A stretch of 57,339 nucleotides of DNA from Calditrichota bacterium (GTDB lineage: Bacteria > Calditrichota > Calditrichia > RBG-13-44-9 > J042): assembly GCA_013150955.1 (NCBI GenBank), contig JAADJD010000026.1, positions 1 to 57,339 on the forward strand, read 5' to 3'. The notes beneath the pieces were generated by a model. That model worked only from the letters and a program-made list of their open reading frames with translations. It had not been told where the DNA came from and did not search any database. The position numbers and the translations under genes were made by a program. Positions within the stretch are counted from its first letter, which is position 1. Each line of letters starts with the position of its first letter. Shown here piece after piece: positions 1 through 57,339 of this stretch.

Positions 1-429
1 AAAAAAACAAATTTGGTTTCGGATGTTCATATTTTAAATCATTTTGATGATATATTTGTAGTTTTTGTAATGGGGGGCTATTTTCTGAGGTATAATATTC
101 TCCATAAAAAGGTATTTTTTCTTTCTCAAACTATTGTTCCGGTGGATTTCCCTGAAGTTGAACAACCAAATCCTTACGTCATGAGAATTTCCCCGGAGAG
201 GAAAATTTCTGCATTCAGTGCTTCTATTGCTGATGGAAAGCTCATGATTTTTTCTTATCGAGCTCTCCAGCAATCTATTGCGGATTTTTATTCTTTAAAA
301 CAAGGGCGATATAAATTTTCCGTTATGCTTGAAAGAAAATATCTGGATCTAAGGTATCATTCGGAAAGGATTTATAGTCTATATAAACAGGGAGTGGATA
401 TTTATGCAGTTGAGAATGGTTCAGACTAA
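1..429 (+). CDS. C-terminal part of a probable 6-bladed beta-propeller protein (partial)
   Basis: The reading frame is open from the first base of the window, so the start lies outside it; the TTG at 13 is probably internal. The visible 142 residues contain alternating short beta-strand-like hydrophobic runs and end shortly after a 'GVDIYAVENG' segment. This resembles the last blade of the propeller lipoproteins at 1874 and 4687, although no blade motif is diagnostic. Codon use is AT-rich like the next few kilobases. It directly precedes a decayed MauE-type gene (8 bases between stop and its first ATG), so the two may once have been co-transcribed. The family assignment is inferred from neighbours and composition; the role is unknown. 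Confidence 0.5.
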   Translation, partial: KKTNLVSDVHILNHFDDIFVVFVMGGYFLRYNILHKKVFFLSQTIVPVDFPEVEQPNPYVMRISPERKISAFSASIADGKLMIFSYRALQQSIADFYSLKQGRYKFSVMLERKYLDLRYHSERIYSLYKQGVDIYAVENGSD

Positions 430-436
430 ATTGAGT

Positions 437-845
437 ATGTTTTTTAAATAGATCTCTGTTATTATTTTATTTTTACTTATAACAGTATACAAGAAGCTTT
501 AAACTTTAGTTATTTTAACCAGACCTTATTTATATTCCCTGTTTTTCAATCTTTGCCTTTCCAATTTGTTGGATTCGTTTCTATTTATATAATTATTACC
601 GAATTAGTATTGCGTATTGGTATCTTGATTCCTATGATACAAAAACCAGTAGCAGTATTGGGGATTGTTTTTACTTTGCTATTTGTGTTTTTACTTTACT
701 GATGATTATTAAAGGGGAAACGTCTGCTTGTGGATGCTTTACTCCGCACTTGGAAAACGAGTTTAATCTCATCAAATTATATCAAAACATGGTCTTAACA
801 ATTCTGTTCTTAGCAGTATATTTAGACATGAAGCACAATTCCTAA
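437..845 (+). pseudogene. Frameshifted MauE/DoxX-like membrane protein
   Basis: No single frame is open, but three consecutive frame segments join into one MauE-like protein. The first reads a hydrophobic start ending 'LLITVYKKL'. The second reads 'EALNFSYFNQTLFIFP' and then 'ELVLRIGILIP'. The third reads 'FTLLMIIKGETSACGCF' and ends at the TAA at 843-845. The order, including a helix followed by a short 'CGCF' cysteine motif, is what MauE-family proteins show; these are membrane proteins tied to periplasmic disulfide chemistry. There is an in-frame stop near 450 and frameshifts near 495 and 700, so it is either dead or carries sequencing errors in homopolymers. A TlpA-like gene 2 kb downstream is its expected partner type. 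Confidence 0.55.
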
Positions 846-1219
846 TTTTTTCAAAAGTAAACATGTATTTTTTAAACCATTAAAGGCATTTTATTTTATG
901 CCAGCAGTTTAAGATTTTAAAGGATAAAAAGATTGCGAGAGGTCCATCATACCCATTTTGAGGAAAGCCACTCCTCAGAGGATGTCCGGAATTGAGGTTC
1001 CTCCACATCGAACAAGCGATCGCTGCGGTGAGCAGGGTGAAAGAAGTTGACAATTTCTGTCGCCAGGGGCTTTTCCTGGTGCCGCGTCCCATTTATTGCC
1101 ACCGGCTCTTGACCAATGGATTGAATTGCATGAAAAATTCAAGGAAAATAACTGAAAAATCTTTTCTATCTGTGGATTGTAAAAAACGGGTAAAAATTTT
1201 AGTAAAACAGAATTTTTTA
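846..1219. other. Gene-free stretch, nothing recognised
   Basis: Short overlapping ORFs occur on both strands here, but none has a ribosome binding site, a recognisable motif or composition like the neighbouring genes. The segment around 990-1110 is locally richer in GC than its surroundings and could be a remnant of another gene, but I could not identify it. Confidence 0.4.
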
Positions 1220-1248
1220 TTGACAAAAAAAATTGTTTTTTATAAAAT
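1220..1248 (+). promoter_or_regulatory. Strong sigma-70-like promoter
   Basis: TTGACA at 1220-1225 is followed after exactly 17 bases by TAAAAT at 1243-1248. It points at the small secreted peptide gene starting at 1605, giving a leader of about 350 nucleotides in which I see no convincing ORF. Confidence 0.55.
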
Positions 1249-1604
1249 GTTTATGCATTTCAAGGGAAGTGGAAGGGAATCCCGCCATTCTTCATTTAAG
1301 ATTTTTGACAAGGTGCATGGGTAAGCGTAAACCCTGTTGGGTTGTTGAGGCATGCGTAAATTTACCAACAAAGATGCTATTTACATTGTTAATCTGGTAG
1401 TATTATTCTTTTTTTCTTTCTACTTGTTCGGCTGGCTAAAAAGGCGGTGGACTGTTTCCCTGCCAGTCAGTTGCTTTATTCAATTAATTCGTATTACCTA
1501 CCGGCACGGCACACGCGCCCCACCTGAACAACTCGTTCCAAGGGTATTTATCAAAGAACACAATTTGTTAAATTTTGGGCATCAACAAAAAAGAGGAATT
1601 AATC

Positions 1605-1781
1605 ATGAAAAAATATATCATAATTTTTCTTTTATTTATTTCTGTTGCCATTATTACACCCTTCACTTTAGTAAATGCACGAGATGACAACGGAGGTTGG
1701 AATCGAACATTTTTTGAAGATCGTGGAGATTGTTATGCGCCTCCTGGTGATTGTCTGGACGATATCATTGTAACCCCGTAA
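1605..1781 (+). CDS. Small secreted two-cysteine peptide (58 aa), unknown function
   Basis: The ATG at 1605 has a purine-rich ribosome binding site (aagaggaa) about 6 bases upstream. Residues 1-25 form a clear Sec signal: MKK, a long hydrophobic core, then 'VNA' before a likely cleavage. The mature part would be only about 33 residues, rich in Asp and Gly, with two cysteines in 'GDCYAPPGDC' that could form a small disulfide loop. It is followed by a hairpin with a short T-run and then by a propeller lipoprotein and a thioredoxin-like lipoprotein. In Bacteroidetes, short secreted peptides often sit beside 6-bladed propeller genes; I did not find an 'NVEALA' signature here, so no family is assigned. 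Function is unknown. The gene is supported by signal peptide, RBS and promoter. Confidence 0.65.
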   Translation: MKKYIIIFLLFISVAIITPFTLVNARDDNGGWNRTFFEDRGDCYAPPGDCLDDIIVTP

Positions 1782-1802
1782 TTTAAAGAACTACATATTA
1801 AT

Positions 1803-1841
1803 AGAGGGAATCCAGTATAAAAGTTGTGGATTCCCTCTTTT
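1803..1841 (+). terminator. Terminator or attenuator after the peptide gene
   Basis: A perfect 12-bp stem (AGAGGGAATCCA at 1803-1814 with TGGATTCCCTCT at 1827-1838) closes a 12-base loop and runs into TTT. The T-run is short, so read-through into the propeller gene 33 bases further on is likely; the peptide would then be made in excess of the downstream products. Confidence 0.7.
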
Positions 1842-1873
1842 AAATAATTGGTTTACAAGCACAAAAGGCTGTT

Positions 1874-2962
1874 ATGAAAATCATAACTAAAAAACTGATT
1901 GTTTTGCTTTTTTTATTAAATTGTTCTACAGAAAATAACAACAGGATTACGCTACCTTCCGTTATTCAGCCAATTGCGCTGAAAAAAATTGATGAAATAA
2001 TATTGGATGAATCACGTTACCGGATTGGTCGCATTGGTTATGGGCATTACGTGGACAAAAATTATCTTTATTTAATAGATAGAGCCAACTACAACTGTTT
2101 GCAATATTCAATGACTGGAGCGTTTACCCGTATAATTGGTAAACGTGGTAAAGGACCTGGGGAATATACTGAACCGTTGTCCATTTTTGCAGACAATGAT
2201 AAAAAAGAGATTTTAATTTTTGATGCTGCCAAATTTGCTATAATTGCCTACACTTTTGACAACCACTATCTTTTCGAAAAAACATTTTCTAATGGTTACC
2301 CATTTCCAGGCGAGATACAAAAAATAAATAGTCACTACATTATTGCTTATTTGAATTATGAAGGAAATAACCGCTGGAAGCACATCCATTATTTTCACTT
2401 TCTGGACGAGAAATTGAATCCAACCCATTCTGTTCGCATAGATTTCCCCGAACTTTACGAAAAATTTAATTTAATTAATCTGGCAACATTGCAATGGTAT
2501 TACCACTTTAAATCCCAAAAAATTTACCTGGTTTATTTAGCGCTGCCGGAAATACATATTTATAATCACAATAATTTAACAGCTATATGGAAATTAAATT
2601 TACCTGGTTTTAAACAAATCAATCGCCAGGTGAATTCATCCAATTTGTTCATTAAGCGAAAAATATTTTCAAGATATACTTATGTGAATGCCCTTTTTGA
2701 AGTTATGCCCGATTATTTGATGGTGACTTATTATAAACAAAATTTACCCCCTATTGGTAAATTTAAACTGTTTGAGACCCGTAAGTACCGAACTTATTAC
2801 TATGTTATTCTGGATTTAAAAAATAAAAAACAAATTGTTCCTCAACGTTCACAATTACCAGGATATATAATTGGTTCCCAAAATGGTAAAATATTTATCC
2901 TTGAAAACGATGAACCAGACAACCGCAAAATTGGCGTGTATGAAGTACAACTTCCACTATGA
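1874..2962 (+). CDS. 6-bladed beta-propeller lipoprotein
   Basis: The protein has 362 residues. The N-terminus (MKIITKK, hydrophobic run, 'LLNC') is a lipoprotein signal with the lipid-bearing Cys near residue 17. The diagnostic feature is 'GKRGKGPGEYTEP' around residue 95, matching the 'GxxGxGPGEF' loop of the 6-bladed propeller family (PF17170-like, common in FCB bacteria). The remaining sequence has repeated beta-strand-rich blades. It likely sits in the periplasm or on the outer membrane; ligands of this family are mostly unknown. Its 3' end overlaps the probable start of the thioredoxin-like gene by 23 bases, which suggests translational coupling. Codon use is AT-rich. Confidence 0.75.
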   Translation: MKIITKKLIVLLFLLNCSTENNNRITLPSVIQPIALKKIDEIILDESRYRIGRIGYGHYVDKNYLYLIDRANYNCLQYSMTGAFTRIIGKRGKGPGEYTEPLSIFADNDKKEILIFDAAKFAIIAYTFDNHYLFEKTFSNGYPFPGEIQKINSHYIIAYLNYEGNNRWKHIHYFHFLDEKLNPTHSVRIDFPELYEKFNLINLATLQWYYHFKSQKIYLVYLALPEIHIYNHNNLTAIWKLNLPGFKQINRQVNSSNLFIKRKIFSRYTYVNALFEVMPDYLMVTYYKQNLPPIGKFKLFETRKYRTYYYVILDLKNKKQIVPQRSQLPGYIIGSQNGKIFILENDEPDNRKIGVYEVQLPL

Positions 2963-3413
2963 GAGCCTTGTTGTTTTTATGATTATGGTGCTTTTTGTGG
3001 TGGGAAGTTGTCAGAAAGATCTGCCACAAAAGGAAAATCTGCAAGTGTTTGCATCATCCCTTTATTTGCTATTCATTCACCTATTTTCTAATGAATGTTC
3101 TTCATGTTTACAACCATTGGAGTTGTTACCTGATTTTAATCCGGTAATACCTCAGGCTACTCTCGAAATAGTGTTTGTACAATACGAAAATGACACCCTA
3201 CTACCGCTATTATTATCCAGCCTGCAGCTTGGCGATTACCCGCGCATATCGGCAGAGCAGCTCCGGTTATTAGGCGTTAACTGGTCGTACACATCGCCTT
3301 ATTTTTTTGTTTACGATACGCGACAGGCGCGCATCGTGATGGAGCATCGGTTACCGGAAACCCTGGAGGATTTTCAGAAGCTTCTGGCCTACTTAAGTAC
3401 ATTTTGGAAGTAA
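2940..3413 (+). CDS. TlpA/thioredoxin-like lipoprotein with CxxC
   Basis: From the ATG at 2940 the product has 157 residues. A hydrophobic leader ends in 'VVGSC', a lipobox. A 'NECSSCLQPLELLPDF' segment around residues 58-73 is a CxxC redox motif at the end of a beta strand and start of a helix, as in thioredoxin folds. A later 'SPYFFVYD' segment would correspond to the strand carrying the cis-proline ('YTSPYF'). It is therefore probably a membrane-anchored periplasmic thiol-disulfide protein. The start overlaps the upstream propeller gene by 23 bases; an alternative ATG at 2979 would give a very short leader. Its substrate could be the two-cysteine peptide at 1605, which is inference from proximity only. 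Confidence 0.6.
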   Translation: MKYNFHYESLVVFMIMVLFVVGSCQKDLPQKENLQVFASSLYLLFIHLFSNECSSCLQPLELLPDFNPVIPQATLEIVFVQYENDTLLPLLLSSLQLGDYPRISAEQLRLLGVNWSYTSPYFFVYDTRQARIVMEHRLPETLEDFQKLLAYLSTFWK

Positions 3414-3570
3414 AGAGGTGTCGGGGGATAGGCTTTGTCGATAAAGGACTGATACCCTGTGTACTTCACAGGCGTAAAATTGTTGTCCAGGATCTTTTCA
3501 GTTGGGGCGCTGTTTTTTTTTCTGTGCTGATAGGAACGAGATGCTGGCACAGGGTTCACATGACTCGCTA

Positions 3571-3742
3571 ATCCCAGATTGTGCATAAGAACCACGAATC
3601 ACGCGAATGAATTCGAAAAAAATCAACAAAATAGCGAATATATCCGGGAAAGCATTTTCATCCAGATAAGATCAAGTGCATTTTGTTATTTTTTATTGGT
3701 GTTCATTCGTGTCATTCGTAGGTGAATGCATAATCTGGGATT
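3571..3742 (+). repeat. Inverted-repeat element, subtype A, full copy
   Basis: The element opens with ATCCCAGATT and closes with AATCTGGGAT, an exact terminal inverted repeat of ten bases. The imperfect match extends to about 40 bases per side ('CCACGAATCACGCGAATG' on the left, 'ATTCGTGTCATTCGTAGG' on the right). Subtype A is marked by 'GAATTCGAAAAA' and 'GTGCATTTTGTTATT' inside. It follows the thioredoxin-like gene. Confidence 0.85.
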
Positions 3743-3756
3743 AAATAAGGGGAAAG

Positions 3757-4575
3757 ATGAAAGATAAACGCTTTGTTATTTCAACAATCTTATCAATAAT
3801 CATTATGTGGATTAAGAAATACAATCTTCAGTCCGTTTCATCCTGAATTGAAAGTGAGCACGTGAATGAATGTAATCAAGCGGAATTAGTTTGTGGGGAA
3901 GGCGATGGCTGGAAAATATCCGCAAGAGATGCTATTATTATTATATAATAAATATACACCGCATCCGAGGTTTATGTTGTCGATCCCATTTGATGATAGA
4001 TTCCAGATAAAACAGGAAAAATCCAGACCGATCGGTCATTATGATGTGATTCCAGAAATCCAATTTTATAAAAAAATTACCTGCTCAAACAGGGAAGCCT
4101 GACTAATGATGGAAAATATTTTTATTTCGCGTCCACTTTCTCAAGTTTAATTATGGGATTTGACATTGGAGGAGAGATGCTTTTTAAAACTCTGGAACCT
4201 TTTCACATACCCATACCCAACTATGTAGGTCCCGCTGCGAATATATTGGGAACCCCTCCGCTTGATAAACATCCCGAGACGTATGTAAACATCGGCGTCG
4301 ATTCGAATTATGTATATGGACTTTACTCTGGATTGACAACACGCTACTTGACAAAGCTTGAAAGGATTAAAGGAAACTATAATGTCTCACAGGGTAAGAA
4401 GCTTATTCTTTTTGATAAAAAGAAGGGCGTGTATATGGGAGAAGCTGTTTTGCCTATCGAGGCTCGGAAAATTTTCGTAACGGAGGATGCCGTTTATGCT
4501 CTATCTGTTGATCCCGAAATCGCTTTAATTAAATATAAAAAACCGATTGAGTTTAATCATGATGTTAAAAACTGA
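3757..4575 (+). pseudogene. Decayed 6-bladed propeller (BF3164-like) gene
   Basis: An ATG at 3757 with a GGGGAAAG ribosome binding site opens a hydrophobic leader of 29 residues that stops at 3846. Beyond it, propeller-like coding continues in other frames: about 3893-4102 ('LLLLYNKYTPHPRFML') and 4153-4575 ('YVNIGVDSNYVYGLYSG', 'KKLILFDKKKGVYMGEAVLP'). The last segment is a typical terminal pair of propeller blades. Gaps and frame changes around 3850 and 4100 show that this is not one intact gene. An intact propeller paralogue starts 112 bases downstream. The broken state is seen directly; the family name is inferred from the blade-like sequence. Confidence 0.6.
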
Positions 4576-4686
4576 TTTTTCTTGTAGATATAGGTCTTCA
4601 ATAAATGTTTCGTTTTAAGCTATTATGCAACATGAAAGTTTAGGAAACCTGGTTTTAAAGTTTCTTTCAGTTTATTAGGAGAAGTT

Positions 4687-5736
4687 ATGAGTGGGAAGTT
4701 AAAGTCCATCCTGTATCTACCGGTTTTGATTTTTCTGATGAATTCCTGCAATGATAAGAGTGAAAATCGGAATATAAAGGTACTGGAAAATAGTTCAGAT
4801 TTTGAATCCATTCATTCTTACCGTATAGATGAATATTCGCTACTTACCGGGGCCACCCACATTTTGTTAGATGGAGAGAATTTTTATTTCACAAATATTA
4901 TTAGTAGGGCAATTTATTTCACCCAAAGACCATTCTCAAAATTTGTAAAAGTTGGAAAAAATGGCCAAGGCCCCTTTGAATATCGAACCCCTTATTACAT
5001 TTTTGTAAAAAATGATACCCTGTTTTATTCCGATATTCACCATTTAAAAATTAAGTGGATTCCCCTGGAGACGGCGAAAAAGCCAAAAGCGCCTCGTTTT
5101 GAATACATCGAATATGCCTGTCGCAATAGCGGGGCGAAATTTGTTGTGGGGGATAAATATGTTTTTGTTTTAAATAAAACGGGTTATTTATTGAGCATTC
5201 TGGATAAAAGGACGGGGAGATTGATAAAGGAAATGATTGAAACCGATGCTTTATATGATTTACCCAACATCCATTTGAATGGAGGGGGGATTGTAAAAGC
5301 CGGTAATTTTATCTATGCCAGTCGCGTTGCCCCCTTTATGATCTATAAAGTAAGGGTGGATACCAGGGAGGGAGAATTTGAATTACAAAATCAATTTAAT
5401 TTTGAACATGCGTCCGGGATGATTCCATGGAGCGATGATTTACGCCACATTGCGCAGAACGATCCGAAGGATTTTTTCAATACGTTAAACCAGATCAGCG
5501 CAGTGAGTGAAATTTTTTTGATAGGCAAAGACAAATCGTATTTATTGGTCAAATTAAGTAGGCCGGGGATGTTTGTGTATTATGTCATCGATTTGAATGG
5601 AACCGTACAGGACATTTATCGATCGAAAATGAATTTGATTTGTGCCAGCCAAGATCAACTTTTCTTTTTTCAAAGAATTGAAGATAACCCACAAAGTCCT
5701 TTTGAGCTTAGGGAGTTTAGGATACGGTCTTTTTAA
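4687..5736 (+). CDS. 6-bladed beta-propeller lipoprotein
   Basis: The protein has 349 residues and starts at an ATG preceded by TTAGGAGAAG. The leader ends in 'FLMNSC', giving a lipoprotein. The family loop appears as 'VGKNGQGPFEYRTP' near residue 95, a variant of 'GxxGxGPGEF' in which the second Gly-Glu is Phe-Glu. Beta-rich blades continue to the end. It is a paralogue of the genes at 1874 and 6159 rather than a duplicate, since sequence similarity outside the loop is low. Probable location is the cell envelope. Function unknown. Confidence 0.75.
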   Translation: MSGKLKSILYLPVLIFLMNSCNDKSENRNIKVLENSSDFESIHSYRIDEYSLLTGATHILLDGENFYFTNIISRAIYFTQRPFSKFVKVGKNGQGPFEYRTPYYIFVKNDTLFYSDIHHLKIKWIPLETAKKPKAPRFEYIEYACRNSGAKFVVGDKYVFVLNKTGYLLSILDKRTGRLIKEMIETDALYDLPNIHLNGGGIVKAGNFIYASRVAPFMIYKVRVDTREGEFELQNQFNFEHASGMIPWSDDLRHIAQNDPKDFFNTLNQISAVSEIFLIGKDKSYLLVKLSRPGMFVYYVIDLNGTVQDIYRSKMNLICASQDQLFFFQRIEDNPQSPFELREFRIRSF

Positions 5737-5800
5737 ATTGAGAGCTAAAACGTGCGTTCGTCCCAATTTGAACAAATTTTTTCAGTGAAGGGCAATAATT

Positions 5801-5990
5801 AACCCAAATAATGCATTAAACAACGAATCACGCGAATGAAACCAAAAAATATCTACAAAATCGCGAATAAACCCTGGAACACATTTTCATCCTGGAACAC
5901 ATTTTCATCCAGACACATTACCAATGTATTTTATTGGTTTTATTTGTGTTAATTTGTGTCATTAGTAGGCTATTGCCTAATCTGGAATTA
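5801..5990 (+). repeat. Inverted-repeat element, subtype B, with an internal 18-bp duplication
   Basis: Begins 'AACCCAAATAATGCATT' and ends 'GCCTAATCTGGAATT'. Subtype B is marked by 'GAAACCAAAAAATATC' and 'CCAATGTATTTTATTGG'. The 18-base unit at 5873-5890 (cctggaacacattttcat) is repeated exactly at 5891-5908, which other copies lack. Confidence 0.85.
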
Positions 5991-6158
5991 ACCCGATGGG
6001 TTTCAATGCAACAGGAAATGGGGGTGAAAGATTTGGTGAAAAAATTCAATTCCATTATATTCAGGTTAAAAAAGAGTCCCGTGGCAGGGAAGGATGCCTC
6101 AACTCTCTGTAGATCAATATGTATGGGGAATGAAGTCGAAGAATATTCGAGGATAAAA

Positions 6159-7265
6159 ATGGTTTTTATTCTTTTATTTGCCTTTTTGTGTTCAGTCAAC
6201 GCGCAATTTCTGGATGAGCATTTCGAGATCGTCCAGACTTTTGATTTAAATTCTGTTGGACAGGTTCAGTACATCGGGGCCAACCAAAAGCAGCAATTAT
6301 TTGTGGGGGATTTGCTGCAGCCGAAAGTTTTTATGTTCTCGCCGGATGGGAAAATGGAGAAGGTCATTGGTGGAAAGGGAAAAGGTCCCGGTGAGTTTCT
6401 CAGTATCGGGGGATTATGGATATTTGAGGATACGCTGTTTGTTTTAGTTCGCGTGGGATTGAGAATAACGGCTTTTGCCCCACCAGAGTATGACGTTTCT
6501 TTTACAATTGATTTAAATCTGATAAACGGAAAATTGCCCACACCGGCAGGCGATGCTTCATTGGCATTGGGTATTGGATTGAATGGATTGTGGAAGACAT
6601 CCCGTGGATTTTTTATTACCTACGGTAGTCCATACTCACCCGCAAATTTGCAAAAAGCGCATGAACTGGAGATGCACCTGGTAAATAAAGATGGCAAAGT
6701 GGTCACCACCACGCCTCTTTTTAAACTTCAAGATAAAGAGATGTTTGTGATCCGTAAGGGAAAAAGCTTCATGGTGGGGGTTATGCCGCTGGGTGTGGTT
6801 CCGATCATCCAATTTTACAACGGGAAATTTTATTGGTTAAATAACAATAATACATCCATTAATGTAACGGATGGGAATGGAAACCTGGTACGAAGAATTC
6901 CGCTACCACTGCTTCAGAAAGTAAAAGTTCATCATTCCGTGCTGGAAGAAATGTTCTCTTTATACGGTTATTCCCGGAAATATTCTCTCCTGGATTTTAA
7001 ACGGCAGGGAGTAACCTTCCCGGAATATTTTCCTTACATAGTAAATTTCATTGTGGATGGAGATTTGCGGATCTGGTATGCCACGTATACCGAGAAAGGT
7101 CGCCAGTATTCCTGGAGGATTGTAGATGAAGATGGCAAACTGATCAAACAGTTCATCTTACCCAGAACGATTGTATTTATTTATTCAAAAGGCGAGTATG
7201 TATATGCCTTGCAAATGACGGAAGAGGGCATCGCCAAAATTCTCAAATTGGAGGGAAATTTTTAA
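6159..7265 (+). CDS. Secreted 6-bladed beta-propeller protein
   Basis: The open frame extends upstream to 5934, but that part is translation of the repeat element, so I place the start at the ATG at 6159. This gives a 368-residue protein with a clean Sec signal ('MVFILLFAFLCSVNAQ') and no lipobox. 'GGKGKGPGEFLSIGG' near residue 70 is the family loop in its canonical form. It is the third intact propeller in 7 kb. No convincing ribosome binding site is visible before 6159, which leaves some doubt about the start. The protein is exported; ligand and partners are unknown. Confidence 0.75.
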   Translation: MVFILLFAFLCSVNAQFLDEHFEIVQTFDLNSVGQVQYIGANQKQQLFVGDLLQPKVFMFSPDGKMEKVIGGKGKGPGEFLSIGGLWIFEDTLFVLVRVGLRITAFAPPEYDVSFTIDLNLINGKLPTPAGDASLALGIGLNGLWKTSRGFFITYGSPYSPANLQKAHELEMHLVNKDGKVVTTTPLFKLQDKEMFVIRKGKSFMVGVMPLGVVPIIQFYNGKFYWLNNNNTSINVTDGNGNLVRRIPLPLLQKVKVHHSVLEEMFSLYGYSRKYSLLDFKRQGVTFPEYFPYIVNFIVDGDLRIWYATYTEKGRQYSWRIVDEDGKLIKQFILPRTIVFIYSKGEYVYALQMTEEGIAKILKLEGNF

Positions 7266-50008: not shown

Positions 50009-50983
50009 TCAGGGCACGATGGTGACCACATTCATGGCCGCGTTTACATTGCCAGCATTATCGTACGCCTTCACGTAAATGGTGTGGGTGTTGCCATCGG
50101 CGTAGGGTGTCAGGTTCCAGGTGTATTCGTAGGGTTTGCTGGTGTCCGTCGCTTTCAAATCGCCATCAATGTAAAACTCCACCCGATCAATTCCGCTGGG
50201 ATCTTCAGCATCGGCCACGATCTTGATGCTGGGGGTGTTGGTGGCACTGAAGGTAGCCCCTGCAGCAGGATACAGGATGGTTAATGTCGGTGGGGTAATA
50301 TCCTGGATCACGTCCGAGGCCACCGTGACTGTCACCGTTGGTGATACACCCGTGTAACCATTTTCATCATACGCCATGGCGAACAGGGAGTGCAGGCTTC
50401 CATTCACCAGTCCGCTCACGTCCCATTCGTATTTAAACGGTGCGGCCAGATCGGTAAATTCCAGATTGCCGTCAATGTAAAATTCCACTTTACTAACTGC
50501 GCTTTGATCTTTGACCTGAGTGATGATGTTCACCGTATCCTGAACCACCTGACCCGATACGGGATGCAGGATGGAGATAACCGGTGCCAGCGTGTCCGGT
50601 TGACTACCTTTCACCACCCGGATGCGCACCAGGGGGGAGAATCCGGTGTTGCCTGATTTGTCCTTTGCCAGCGCCATGATATAATGATCCCGATTATCGG
50701 CAATAGAGGTTGTGTTCCACTGGTAGGAAAGGCTATTGCCCTTCTGGGTTGCCACCTGTTGACCATCGATGTACAGCATCATGGTCTCCACGTCGTCGTC
50801 ATCTGTAGCGGAGGCGACCACGGGAATCTCGCCCGTTACCACCTGGCCCGGTGCCGGATGAATGATCACCACAATGGGCGGAACCACGTCCGGAATCTCC
50901 GGAACCGAACAGCCCGGAACACCCAGCAACAACACCGCCATCCCAATGGATAACAGAACACCTGCCGTTTTAACCCTTCTCAT
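50009..50983 (-). CDS. Lipoprotein with three bacterial Ig-like repeats
   Basis: A 324-residue protein with a lipoprotein leader ('LLGVPGCSVPE'). Three domains of about 95 residues follow, each with 'DRVEFYIDG' (or 'SKVEFYIDG', 'ETMMLYIDG'), then a 'Y.WN' or 'YEWD' strand and 'AYDNAGN'-like ends. This is the Big_7-type Ig fold (PF17957) seen in many surface proteins. No catalytic part is present, so it is probably a binding or structural protein of the cell envelope. It is transcribed alone with its own terminator. The gap upstream to the SPOR gene (about 250 bases) holds divergent promoters, not resolved here. Confidence 0.85.
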   Translation of the reverse strand: MRRVKTAGVLLSIGMAVLLLGVPGCSVPEIPDVVPPIVVIIHPAPGQVVTGEIPVVASATDDDDVETMMLYIDGQQVATQKGNSLSYQWNTTSIADNRDHYIMALAKDKSGNTGFSPLVRIRVVKGSQPDTLAPVISILHPVSGQVVQDTVNIITQVKDQSAVSKVEFYIDGNLEFTDLAAPFKYEWDVSGLVNGSLHSLFAMAYDENGYTGVSPTVTVTVASDVIQDITPPTLTILYPAAGATFSATNTPSIKIVADAEDPSGIDRVEFYIDGDLKATDTSKPYEYTWNLTPYADGNTHTIYVKAYDNAGNVNAAMNVVTIVP

Positions 50984-51231
50984 TGAATGACTCCCATGTT
51001 TAAGTTGAATGAACCTCTTTTTCTACCCAATTAAGAACGTGGTATAAAAACGCTTTTTGTATCCTGCCGTTGTGATGAAAGTCATACCTGTTCAACCATT
51101 CTTTTCTGTAAGTGGTAACGGGATAAATATTTAAGACTTTTCCCCCGGACAACCTGTGAATATATTTCCCTTGAATTATCGGCGAAATTGTCTTAATTTT
51201 TCACAAAATTTTTCTTATTTCGGGAAACTTG

Positions 51232-51783
51232 ATGATGATTGACTGGAAAAAAGGGAGTTTGTTACTGCTATTTGCTGGAATTCTGATGCTTTCCTGTGCA
51301 ACCACACGAAAGGCGACCGAACCCGCACCCGAAGCCGCAAAAGCGCCGCCATCCCCATTGTTCGATGAGTCATTTGATCCCCTGACGTTGAACGATGAGG
51401 ATATTCGCTTTGAAGAGGAAAAGGTGCCGGAGACCGGGGAGCCCGCCACCACGCCCGCTACCGGAAAAGGCCCGGCAACACGGGTGGAGGCGAATCGGTT
51501 GATCAATGGATTTCGGGTGCAATTGCTGGCCACCAAGGACATCGAGACGGCCACACTGGCCAAAAAGGAGGCCGAATTTACCTTCGCCGAGGATAGCGTG
51601 GGCATTTACATCGAATTCGACAGTCCCTACTATAAATTGCGCATTGGCGATTGCAAAACCCGCGAAGAGGCCGAACGGCTGCGTGATATTGCGCGAACCA
51701 AAGGGTATCCCCAGGCCTGGATTGTCAGAACCAAGGTCTGGTCGAATCCCAACCTGCCAAAAACCGCTACAGAAAATCCTTAA
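51232..51783 (+). CDS. SPOR-domain lipoprotein
   Basis: A 183-residue protein starting at the first of two adjacent ATGs (51232 or 51235). A leader ending 'ILMLSCATT' gives a lipoprotein. A low-complexity Pro/Ala/Glu segment runs to about residue 95. Residues 97-175 ('GFRVQLLATKDIETATLAKKEAEF...YYKLRIGDCKTREEAERLRDIARTKGYPQAWIV') form a SPOR domain, which binds denuded peptidoglycan at division sites. It may assist envelope constriction or serve as a wall anchor. It lies just upstream of yebC in the same direction. Confidence 0.88.
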   Translation: MMIDWKKGSLLLLFAGILMLSCATTRKATEPAPEAAKAPPSPLFDESFDPLTLNDEDIRFEEEKVPETGEPATTPATGKGPATRVEANRLINGFRVQLLATKDIETATLAKKEAEFTFAEDSVGIYIEFDSPYYKLRIGDCKTREEAERLRDIARTKGYPQAWIVRTKVWSNPNLPKTATENP

Positions 51784-51829
51784 CCGAATTTGAGAAGAGG
51801 TTAAGTTCCTGGATTAAAATGGAGGAATT

Positions 51830-52579
51830 ATGGCTGGTCATTCGAAATGGGCGAATATCCGCTTTCGAAAGGAACGTCAGGATGCCAAGCGTGGAAAAAT
51901 CTTTACCAAATTGATTAAGGAGATTACCATTGCAGCCCGGATGGGTGGGGGAGACCCGGCGGCCAATCCCCGACTGCGCACCGCCATTCAGAATGCCAAG
52001 GCGGCCAACATGCCCATGAAGAACATCGAAAATGCCATCAAGAAGGGAACCGGAGAATTGCCCGGTGTGGTGTATGAGGAAGTGACCTACGAAGGCTATG
52101 GGCCGGGCGGCGTGGCCATGTACATCGTTTGTACAACCGACAATAAGAATCGCACGGTTGCCGAAATTCGTCACCTGCTGAATAAATACGGCGGAAACCT
52201 GGGGGAGTCTGGCAGTGTCAGCTGGATGTTCGACAAAAAAGGCCTGATCCGGGTAAAACGCGCCAACTACGATGAAGAGGAGCTGATGTTGCTGGCCATC
52301 GATGCCGGGGCAGAGGACTTTCGCGTCGAAGACGAATTCTACGAAATCTACACCGATTTCAAAGAGCTGGATGCCGTGCGCAGCCAGCTGGAAGAGCAGG
52401 GCATTCACATTGAATCCGCAGAGATCACCTTCATTCCCCAGAGCACCGTGCGCCTGGAAGGAAAACAGGCGGAGCAGATGCTGAAACTGATGGAGGCGCT
52501 GGAAGACAACGACGACGTGCAGAATGTTTACGCCAATTTTGATATTGATGAAGCCGTAATGGAAAAACTTCAGGCATAA
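51830..52579 (+). CDS. yebC: YebC/TACO1-family translation or transcription regulator
   Basis: A 249-residue protein of standard length, starting '[28 protein letters not shown]', the highly conserved family start. '[35 protein letters not shown]' and '[19 protein letters not shown]' follow. YebC proteins were long described as DNA-binding regulators, and more recent work links the family to translation of proline-rich stretches. GGAGG ribosome binding site. The position directly before ruvC is the common bacterial arrangement. Confidence 0.96.
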
Positions 52580-52591
52580 GAGGATGAACGG

Positions 52592-53089
52592 GTGATCATA
52601 CTGGGGATTGATCCGGGTTTGAGCGTAACCGGATACGGGGTTATCGAGGCGACCGGGGGGCAAGTGCGGTGTCTGGATTTTGGCGGCATTTATCCCAACA
52701 CCAGGGGCACGCTGGGAGAAAAGCTGGAACGGATTTACCGGGGCATAAGGGATGTGGTGGAGGCCTATCATCCCGAAGCCGTTGCCATTGAAGATATTTT
52801 TTACCATGAAAATGTGAAGACGGCCATCGTGATGGGGCATGCGCGGGGGGTGAGTATTCTCGCGGCGCAGCAGGCCCGGATTCCGGTCTTTGAATATGCA
52901 CCACGGGAAATTAAAATGTCGGTGGGGGGCTCCGGAGCGGCATCGAAACAGCAGGTGCAGGCCATGGTAAAGACCCTGCTCCATTTGTCGGAATTGCCCC
53001 GACCCTACGATGCCGCTGATGCCCTGGCGGTTGCCCTTTGCCACTTTCATCGCATGAAGTTTCAATCATTAACCTCTGCAACCAAATAG
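52592..53089 (+). CDS. ruvC: Holliday junction resolvase RuvC
   Basis: A 165-residue nuclease that cuts Holliday junctions. The start is a GTG at 52592 with AAGAGGATGAA upstream. The four acidic metal ligands are visible: Asp in 'ILGIDPGLSVTGYG', Glu in 'AIEDIFY', and two Asp in 'YDAADALAVA'. It is located 12 bases after yebC and 6 before ruvA, so it is part of one operon. Confidence 0.96.
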   Translation: MIILGIDPGLSVTGYGVIEATGGQVRCLDFGGIYPNTRGTLGEKLERIYRGIRDVVEAYHPEAVAIEDIFYHENVKTAIVMGHARGVSILAAQQARIPVFEYAPREIKMSVGGSGAASKQQVQAMVKTLLHLSELPRPYDAADALAVALCHFHRMKFQSLTSATK

Positions 53090-53095
53090 ACGTCC

Positions 53096-53704
53096 ATGAT
53101 CGAAACGGTAACCGGAAAGCTGATCGAAAAATCGCCCACGTATTGCGTGCTGGATTGCCACGGAGTGGGGTTGGGAATCCACATTACCCTGAACACCTTT
53201 CACAAACTGGAACAGCATCCATCGGCGGAGCAAATCTCCCTGTACACCCATCTGCATGTGCGGGAGGATGACCTTCAGCTATATGGTTTTGGCGATCCCG
53301 AAGAAAAGGAAATGTTTCGGCTGTTGATTGGCATTTCCGGGGTGGGGCCCCGGCTGGCGCTGGCGGTTTTGTCGGGCATTTCCACCGCCGACCTTCAACA
53401 GGCCATTTCCATGGAACAGGTGGAAGTGCTGACCCGCATCCCGGGGGTTGGACGCAAGACGGCACAACGGATTGTGCTGGAGTTAAAGGAAAAAATCCAG
53501 CGCCGGGATCAGCTGGTGGCGGTGGCACAGCCCGCGGTGGCCGCGGGATTCTCCGGAGAAAAGGTCAACGAAGCCATTCTGGCCCTCATCTCCCTGGGGT
53601 ACAAACAGGCGGATGCCGAAAAGGCCGTAAACAGGGTTTTGTCTTCCGCAAAAGATGACTTATCTTTAGAAGAATTGATTAAGCAGGCGTTAAAGGCGAT
53701 TTGA
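53096..53704 (+). CDS. ruvA: Holliday junction branch migration protein RuvA
   Basis: A 202-residue protein of the usual length. An N-terminal OB domain ('[30 protein letters not shown]') is followed by tandem helix-hairpin-helix motifs ('[20 protein letters not shown]', '[23 protein letters not shown]') and a C-terminal RuvB-contacting domain ('[19 protein letters not shown]'). It binds the junction as a tetramer and loads RuvB. Six bases from ruvC and one base from ruvB. Confidence 0.97.
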
Positions 53705-53705
53705 T

Positions 53706-54734
53706 ATGGCAGAAAAGCGCGACATCATTAATCCCCGGCCCATGCAGGAAGATCGCGATTTTGAATCCACCCTGCGTCCCACGACCTTCGATGAATTTGT
53801 GGGCCAGCACAAAGTGATCGAAAATTTGCGGATTTATATCGAAGCCGCTCGCCAGCGCCGGGAAGCGCTGGATCATGTTTTGCTGTATGGCCCGCCGGGA
53901 CTGGGAAAGACCACCCTGGCCTATATCATTGCGCACGAGTTGGGAGTGGATATCAAAACCACCTCTGGCCCGGTACTGGACAAAGCCGGGGATCTGGCCG
54001 GCATCCTGACCAATCTGGATGAACGCGATGTGCTGTTCATCGATGAAATACATCGTTTGAACCACGTGGTGGAAGAGTACCTCTACTCCGCCATGGAAGA
54101 TTTCCACCTGGACATTATGATTGATCGGGGCGCCAATGCCCGCAGCATTCAGATTAAGCTGCCGCAGTTCACGCTGGTGGGGGCAACCACCCGGGCGGGA
54201 TTATTAACCGCACCCATGCGGGCCCGCTTTGGTGTGGTGTTGCGATTGGATTATTATACCCCGGATGATCTGCTGCAAATCTTGCTGCGATCAGCGCGCC
54301 TGTTGCAGGTGGAAATCGATGAAGAGGGGGCGATGGAGATTGCCCGTCGTTCCCGGGGAACACCACGCATTGCCAATCGCCTGTTACGGCGGGCACGAGA
54401 TTTTGCCCAGGTCAAGGCAGATGGGGTCATCACCCGGGAGGTCGCCCAACAGTCCCTGCAGCTGCTGGAAGTGGATGAACGGGGACTGGACGAGATGGAT
54501 AAGCGGATCATTCGCACCATCATCGAAAAGTACAATGGGGGGCCGGTGGGGATCAATACCATTGCCGTCGCAGTGGGAGAAGAAAGCGACACCATCGAAG
54601 AAGTGTATGAACCGTTTTTGATCCAGGAAGGCTTTATTAAACGCACCCCACGGGGACGGGTGGCCACACAATTGGCCTACGAGCATTTTAATTATAAACA
54701 GAGGAGATTTGGCTATCAGCAGGAATTATTTTGA
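53706..54734 (+). CDS. ruvB: Holliday junction helicase RuvB
   Basis: A 342-residue AAA+ motor. '[19 protein letters not shown]', Walker A '[11 protein letters not shown]', Walker B '[10 protein letters not shown]', sensor 1 'GATTRAG' and the arginine-finger region '[15 protein letters not shown]' are all intact, followed by the C-terminal winged helix ('[16 protein letters not shown]'). It drives branch migration with RuvA. The TGA at 54732-54734 lies 13 bases before the queA start. Confidence 0.98.
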
Positions 54735-54747
54735 CGGAGATCGACAA

Positions 54748-55782
54748 TTGAAACTGAAGCTGTCGGATTTTGATTATCATTTGCCCGAGGAACTGATTGC
54801 CCAGTATCCCCTGGAACGCCGGGACGAGAGCCGGTTGATGGTGCTGAATCGGGAAACGGGCACCATCGAGCATCGAATTTTTAAAGAGATCATTGAATAT
54901 TTGCATCCAGGGGATTGTCTGGTGCTAAACAATACCAAGGTTTTCCCCGCGCGGTTGATCGGGAAAAAGGATAAAACCGGTGCCCGGGTCGAACTATTGC
55001 TGTTGCGGAATCTGGAAAACGGCATCTGGGAAGTGATGGTCAAGCCGGCCCGGAAGGTGCGTCTGGGCAACAAGCTGGTGTTTGGGGATCATTTTACATG
55101 CGATGTGATTGACAATACCATCTCCGGCGGACGAATTGTGGAGTTCCATTTCAACGGGGATTTTTACGAGGCCCTGGAGAAGGTGGGCCAAACGCCTCTG
55201 CCGCCGTATATTAAGCGCCCCTCCGAACCCATCGACCGGGAATATTATCAGACCGTGTATGCCCAGGCACCGGGGGCGGTAGCGGCGCCAACGGCGGGAT
55301 TGCATTTTACCAAAGAACTGCTGGAGAAGATCAAGAAGAAGGGGGTTAAGCTGGCGTTTGTGACCCTCCATGTTGGGCTGGGCACGTTTAAACCGGTGCA
55401 GGTGGAGGACATTACCCGTCATCAAATGGATTCGGAATATTATGAATTGAATGAAGAGGCGGTACGCACCATTAACAAGACGCGCGAAGCGGGAAAAGCC
55501 ATTGTGGCTGTGGGAACCACCACCGTGCGGGTGCTGGAGACCATTGTGGATCGGAATGGGTACCTGCGTCCCTCGCGGGGATGGACGGATAAATTTATTT
55601 ATCCCGGATACAAGTTCCGGGCCATCGATCATTTGATAACCAATTTTCACCTGCCAAAATCCACCCTGTTGATGCTGGTGTCGGCATTTGCGGGACACGA
55701 GTTCATTATGAAGGCCTACAAAATTGCGGTGGAGGAGCGGTATCGGTTTTTCAGCTACGGCGATGCCATGTTGATTTTATAA
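54748..55782 (+). CDS. queA: S-adenosylmethionine:tRNA ribosyltransferase-isomerase
   Basis: The open frame reaches 54709 inside ruvB, but the conserved protein start '[20 protein letters not shown]' and a GGAG (54736-54739) eight bases upstream support a TTG start at 54748, giving 344 residues. Key segments are present: '[12 protein letters not shown]', '[16 protein letters not shown]', 'PPYIKRP', '[13 protein letters not shown]', '[10 protein letters not shown]', '[10 protein letters not shown]' and '[19 protein letters not shown]'. QueA attaches the ribosyl part of SAM to preQ1-modified tRNA to form epoxyqueuosine. It is co-transcribed with ruvCAB, as in many bacteria. Confidence 0.96.
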
Positions 55783-55911
55783 GCCGATTGGTTTCGTGTC
55801 CGGTTGAATGTGGATTGGAGGCGTCATACGGGAGTTGAGGGGACGCCTCTGGCGGGTAATCATAGAAAGATGCATCTCAGAAAAATCGAAAGGCGTGTCC
55901 CCGTAAATTTC

Positions 55912-56153
55912 ATTCCAGATTATGCATTCGCCTACGAATGACACGAATTAACACCAGCAAAAATAGTCCCAGATTATGCATTAGAACCACGAATGACACG
56001 AATTCACACAAATAAAACCAATAAAATACATTGGATTGGGTCTGGATGAAAATGTGTTCCAGGGTTTATTCGCGATTTTGTAGATGTGTTTTGGTTTCAT
56101 TCGCGGGATTCGCGGTTTAATGCATTATTTGAGATTAAAGGCATTATTTGGGA
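55912..56153 (-). repeat. Inverted-repeat cluster: end fragment plus full subtype B copy, reverse
   Basis: A left-end fragment (55912-55966) is followed by a full reverse subtype B copy (55967-56136) and a 17-base extra end. The 130 bases between queA and this cluster hold no recognised feature. Confidence 0.8.
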
Positions 56154-56164
56154 TAATAATAACA

Positions 56165-56790
56165 GGTGAACTAACAGTCGAAAAATGATCCCCCAAATCC
56201 GCAATCCCAAATCCGAAATCCGACATTCGAAATCCGCAATCCGAAATCCGAAATCGGACACCCGCCCCGAAGGGGCAAAATACGTTAACCCGGGGCATCG
56301 CCCCGGGATCGGAGAGGTTCGCCAAAAACACACGCGCCCTGTAAGGGCACAATAATAAACATGTGAACCAACAATCGAGAAATGATCCCCCAATCCGCAA
56401 TCCCAAATCCGACATCCGACATCCGACATCCGCAATCCGCAATCCGCAATCCGCAATCATTTCCAGTTGCCCTTCAGGCAACGGGGGATGATGATGGCGC
56501 CTTGAATCCCCCACGCGCCGCGTGGGGCTACCCTCTCTTTGCCCTTCGGGCAAATCGCCTGCACGGCAAATCCCGCAATTTCATTCCGCCCGGATGACGC
56601 TCAATCCCGTGAACCCGGAACACCCCCGGTAAATCACCCTCCCAAATCCGACATCCGACATCCGAAATCAGAAACCCGCCCCGTAGGGGCAAAATACGTT
56701 AACCCGGGGCATCGCCCCGGGATCAGAGAAGCTCAGCAAAAAGCCACACGCGCCCTGTAAGGGCACAATAATAAACAGTCAGTTCGCACC
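56165..56790. repeat. Palindrome-rich composite repeat block
   Basis: A segment of about 100 bases occurs twice (56261-56362 and 56674-56776). Each copy carries three tight hairpins: GCCCC(GAA or GTA)GGGGC, CCCGGGGC-ATC-GCCCCGGG and GCCCTGTAAGGGC. A lead-in sequence containing AATGATCCCCCA also occurs twice (near 56183 and 56382). Between them lie 7-base tandem arrays (ATCCGAC x3 then ATCCGCA x4, about 56410-56458). Further palindromes such as CCCCACGCGCCGCGTGGGG and TTGCCCTTCGGGCAA lie at 56500-56560. No protein is credible here. Confidence 0.85.
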
Positions 56791-56870
56791 ACCCCCAAAA
56801 TCACCCCACACCCCAAATCCGCCACCCCAAATAACAATAATTTTCCTTTTATAAAGAAGAAATATTTCAG

Positions 56871-57339
56871 TTAGTTAGATGTGCCTTCCTTTGCCCTAAC
56901 TTTCTCTAAGTATTCTTTATTTTCATCACTTGTTAACTTTCTAAATTGCTTATCTTTAACTGTTACAAGAGCAATTTCAACATTTTCTGCAGTTAATTTA
57001 AGTTGAGATACTTCAAACAGTATCTTCAAAGCCATTTGTAATGCTTCTTCAACTGTAATATCATCGTGATAAGAATCTTCTAATTTGGTCTTTGCATCGT
57101 GACCTCCCACGCCAATTGCTGTTGCTTTGTAGCCCCAATAAGCACCACTAGGATCGGTCATAAATAATTGTGGCTCTCTATCCACGCCAGCAATCAATAA
57201 AGAAACACCAAATGGTCTAACACCAGCTCGTTGTGTATAAAGTTGTTTTAAGTCGCATATACGTTTAGTCAAAAATTCTATGTCTATGGGTTCATCATAA
57301 AGATATCGGTGAGACTGGGCTTCTATTCTTGCAGAAAAT
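56871..57339 (-). CDS. psmA: Archaeal-type 20S proteasome alpha subunit, 3' part (partial)
   Basis: The frame is open to the window edge, so the N-terminal region is missing. The visible 155 residues read 'SARIEAQSHRYLYDEPIDI', 'KRICDLKQLYTQRAGVRPFG', 'VSLLIAGVDREPQLFMTDPSG', 'YWGYKATAIGVGGHDAKTKLE' and 'ITVEEALQMALKILFEVSQ'. This is the canonical order of archaeal alpha subunits, which lack peptidase residues and form the outer rings of the core particle. Codon use and base composition are AT-rich, unlike the genes to its left. Bacterial proteasome PrcA proteins are less similar to these motifs. It is either transferred DNA or a misjoined archaeal piece. Confidence 0.9.
   Translation of the reverse strand, partial: FSARIEAQSHRYLYDEPIDIEFLTKRICDLKQLYTQRAGVRPFGVSLLIAGVDREPQLFMTDPSGAYWGYKATAIGVGGHDAKTKLEDSYHDDITVEEALQMALKILFEVSQLKLTAENVEIALVTVKDKQFRKLTSDENKEYLEKVRAKEGTSN

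Follow-up and report, generated by a model that had tools for sequence, protein, structure and literature searches.

In bacteria, proteasomes are composed of PrcA and PrcB and are found mainly in Actinobacteria, with HslV, Anbu and BPH as homologues (PMC8665760). The gene fragment studied here shares the proteasome fold with these proteins, but it scores far better with archaeal alpha-subunit models than with bacterial ones. Its closest described counterpart is the archaeal alpha subunit PsmA (TIGR03633 / NF003075), which it resembles in sequence over residues ~94-243, including the segments GVRPFGVSLLIAG and TDPSGAYWGYKATAIG. The identity is 58% to proteins of Methanomethylicota and Odinarchaeia and 55% to that of Hydrothermarchaeum. 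Unlike archaeal PsmA, the fragment is cut by the end of a contig, lacks the N-terminal third, lies beside bacterial DNA and is not accompanied by a beta subunit. A second type of object to which the locus can be compared is the chimeric contig. Assemblers that work with k-mers are known to yield paths that are found in no genome, and the resulting chimeras are a source of error in public databases (PMC8172020). The contig examined here is like those metagenome chimeras in that foreign sequence appears to be joined to it at a repeat at the contig end, and in that its probable true neighbour lies on another contig ending in the same type of repeat; it differs from them in no respect.

The window, i.e. 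the whole stretch of 57,339 nt that was analysed, is an entire contig (C61) that ends at 57339. It belongs to a bacterial genome of 66 contigs and 4.07 Mb, which is 99.73% complete. The contamination of this genome is 0.37% and therefore foreign DNA is possible. On the minus strand, at 56871-57338, the window contains the 3' part of psmA, encoding an archaeal-type 20S proteasome alpha subunit according to profile and structure matches. The frame has 155 codons and a stop (56871-56873), together 468 coding bases, and its 5' end is cut by the contig end. The fragment matched the archaeal models NF003075 of NCBIfam (4e-55) and TIGR03633 (4.2e-53) as well as Pfam PF00227 (2e-35), and solved archaeal alpha subunits matched it down to 7e-45, from residue ~94 on. 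The E value of 4e-55 is decisive for homology to the archaeal proteasome alpha subunit. The bit scores stayed under the curated cut-offs (186.8 versus 219, and 180.2 versus 287.35) because only ~60% of the protein is present: the fragment spans residues 94-243 of the 248-position archaeal alpha model. The ~93 N-terminal residues, with the H0 helix, the gate and Proteasome_A_N, are missing and would lie beyond the contig end. An earlier note on this DNA had recognized an archaeal-type proteasome alpha gene at the contig end, and this identity is borne out by both archaeal models, by PF00227 and by the solved structures. Its mention of a full set of alpha motifs was overstated, as only the C-terminal ~60% is there and the gate is absent. 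The contig truly stops at 57339.

The gene fragment is part of a foreign, archaeal tail of 508 bases (56832-57339). Its GC content is 0.34 versus 0.49 in the rest of the window and 0.55 in the repeat array that precedes it. This array (56150-56831) is a native dispersed repeat that matched at 129 places in the genome, its own among them, and consists of a heptamer-like satellite (CCGAAAT/CCGCAAT) within units of ~400 nt. Arrays of the heptamer satellite are also found on C15, C40, C10, C17, C26, C29, C11 and C49. At 56831/56832 the window turns AT-rich, whereas the matching unit on C15 (the best copy, located at the end of that contig) continues as repeat. The origin of the sequence thus changes at a single point, where a repeat unit is left mid-unit for an AT-rich archaeal tail, and this point is regarded as the chimeric junction. 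The observation that the end with psmA comes right after a repeat block holds: the tail begins exactly where the array match stops. The AT-richness of the end was likewise seen correctly (GC 0.34 over 56832-57339), but is not diagnostic by itself because the left end of the window is alike. The composition of the tail was considered as proof of a foreign origin and set aside as weak, as 2% of the genome's own 508-nt windows reach a GC content as low and many contig ends are equally AT-rich. As a separate observation, the heptamer satellite (CCGAAAT/CCGCAAT/CCGACAT) together with palindromes of the CCCGGGGCATCGCCCCGGG type makes up ~400-nt units that are scattered through the genome.

The last bacterial gene of the contig is queA (54709-55782, plus strand). 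A congener (G001) is collinear with the window over 50009-55786 at 78% DNA identity, and in it queA is followed, after a gap of 318 nt, by mraZ, rsmH, ftsL, ftsI and murE (mraZ and rsmH were tested with Pfam; ftsL, ftsI and murE were named by order and sequence). The succession of queA by mraZ and rsmH was also found in G004 and G005, genomes of the same order that represent two other families, and a different gene follows queA in G003, a member of the same family. The adjacency of queA and mraZ is therefore not universal, but it is conserved within the genus and extends to two genomes from other families. In the genome of the window, mraZ is located on C15 (50604-51053, minus strand), is 85% identical to that of the congener, and is followed by rsmH, ftsL, ftsI and murE. 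Between mraZ and the end of C15 at 52330 lie the promoter region and then only ~1.1 kb of array of the C61 type, in matching orientation and with 84% identity to the C61 array over 644 nt. The promoter region of mraZ is identical letter for letter over 56 nt in the congener and C15. As the mraZ-rsmH-ftsL-ftsI-murE series stands beside a terminal array of the C61 type, C15 is the likely neighbour of C61. The final 91 nt of C15 recur exactly 900 nt inward. Exact overlaps between contig ends likewise reach 91 nt at most in this assembly, so that C15 seems to break off at a repeat node of the assembly graph. Very probably, the true continuation of C61 is C15 in reverse, through an array that the assembly did not resolve. 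In the simplest layout, C61 with queA leads through the repeat array to reversed C15 with mraZ, leaving no room for a proteasome tail.

Contig C61 is almost certainly an assembly chimera, to which an archaeal tail was misjoined at a repeat, and does not carry a transferred proteasome. This is because the tail departs from the array mid-unit at 56831 and C15 carries mraZ beyond an array of the same type, because queA and mraZ are adjacent in G001, G004 and G005, and because the genome has no other piece of psmA, no Proteasome_A_N above the cut-off and no SBDS, and the 39 other genomes of the phylum no psmA. Bases 1-56831 would then be genuine bacterial chromosome, breaking off within an array, between queA and mraZ, that the assembler failed to bridge, and bases 56832-57339 would be a piece of ~0.5 kb from an archaeon, presumably of the same sample, that ends in the middle of psmA. 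The join might have originated from a false path through the repeat, from a read or library fragment that was itself chimeric, or from local extension of the end. We infer that it is absent from the organism, in which the psmA fragment would be without function. The earlier note had left the choice between a chimeric contig, with a repeat block that could have misled assembly, and the gain of an archaeal proteasome. The chimera and the part of the repeat in it are both well supported, by the layout of C15 with mraZ at its end beyond the C61-type array and by the adjacency of queA and mraZ in relatives, and for the lateral transfer the physical join was the sole support. About 0.5 kb of foreign DNA next to a repeat at the end of a contig can thus be enough to suggest a striking transfer between domains, and automatic annotation of C61 would credit a bacterial phylum with an archaeal proteasome gene.

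If the join were true, this phylum, in which no such gene was seen, would have acquired a proteasome gene from archaea separately. Such a transfer, by which archaeal psmA and maybe more genes now in the assembly gap were inserted in the queA-mraZ array, is very unlikely, although the tail and the bacterial DNA are contiguous in the deposited contig. Repeat arrays can serve as insertion sites, and a repeat-flanked insertion between queA and mraZ would give the same two contig ends, with the rest of the insert in principle in the gap between C61 and C15. Yet C15, on the other side of this gap, has repeat only and no archaeal sequence, and queA and mraZ of the congener stand 318 nt apart with no insert. 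Moreover, the search for a beta subunit that the earlier note had proposed came out against a transfer: PF00227 was found in just two places in this 99.7%-complete genome, the fragment on C61 and a protein on C29 that, from its open frame of 191 residues and from bacterial controls, appears to be HslV-like, so that apart from the latter no beta subunit was detected by this model. A working proteasome would need a beta subunit besides the alpha subunit. The N-terminal part of psmA was not found either, Proteasome_A_N giving no match above the cut-off anywhere in the genome, and SBDS, whose gene often adjoins psmA in archaea, is absent from it. The phylum, probably Calditrichota, was sampled with 40 species, the window's own genome included, and none of the 39 other genomes, that of the congener among them, contained psmA at E <= 1e-5. 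The same result speaks against the idea that a proteasome-like protein native to this bacterial lineage (Anbu, BPH or PrcA) was taken for an archaeal one. Bacteria do have several proteins of the proteasome fold and this genome an HslV-like one, but the archaeal alpha model matched the fragment at 4e-55 and the bacterial PrcA model at 2e-5, so that such a mistake is barely conceivable.

With regard to the donor, relatives of the fragment were found at 74 named loci among 84,980 species, all with archaeal titles except one. The phylogeny that had been suggested as a check put the fragment among archaea, on a long branch that lacks support, and does not place the donor lineage. The best identity to any relative was 58%, and nothing closer than 55-58% was present in the phyla to which the Methanomethylicota, Odinarchaeia and Hydrothermarchaeum loci belong (398, 227 and 23 genomes, respectively). 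No match of at least 24 bases to the tail occurred in any other locus fetched, the longest shared exact k-mers being 20-23 nt. That no donor archaeon was found, and with it no archaeal sequence from the other side of the break, counts against the chimera. Integration of an archaeal plasmid or virus in the bacterium could also be imagined, as some haloarchaeal megaplasmids bear psmA. Viral contigs contained no relative of the fragment, the plasmid matches were haloarchaeal and just 36-38% identical, and no mobile-element feature adjoins the tail in the window; a mobile element is therefore an extremely improbable source. The one relative without an archaeal title (JAJPJY010000145.1, Centralia_MAG_577) is titled 'bacterium', but its psmA groups among Bathyarchaeota, and it is probably a mislabelled archaeal bin.

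Finally, the assembly has 132 contig ends, of which 130 were examined. Between queA and the array the window contains a second native dispersed repeat (55881-56149), which was present within 1500 nt of 67 of the 130 ends versus 28 of 117 interior stretches of equal length. This enrichment implies that the assembly breaks at dispersed repeats. The repeat is intergenic and bears GAATGACACGAATT-like motifs, and 34 contig ends have it within their last 200 nt. A second archaeal tail was not noticed by eye among the 130 ends; the genes cut by them, also read by eye, look native and are mostly repetitive (transposases, repeat proteins, NRPS). Apparent transposase genes or long repeat proteins are cut at the ends of C36, C18, C4, C60 and C65. 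Features of this kind commonly interrupt assemblies made from short reads. The left end of the window (1-7000) is AT-rich as well, with a GC content of 0.32-0.41, and its short lipoprotein-like genes are interspersed with at least two for 6-bladed beta-propeller (DUF5128) proteins. This region is probably native or an old acquisition.
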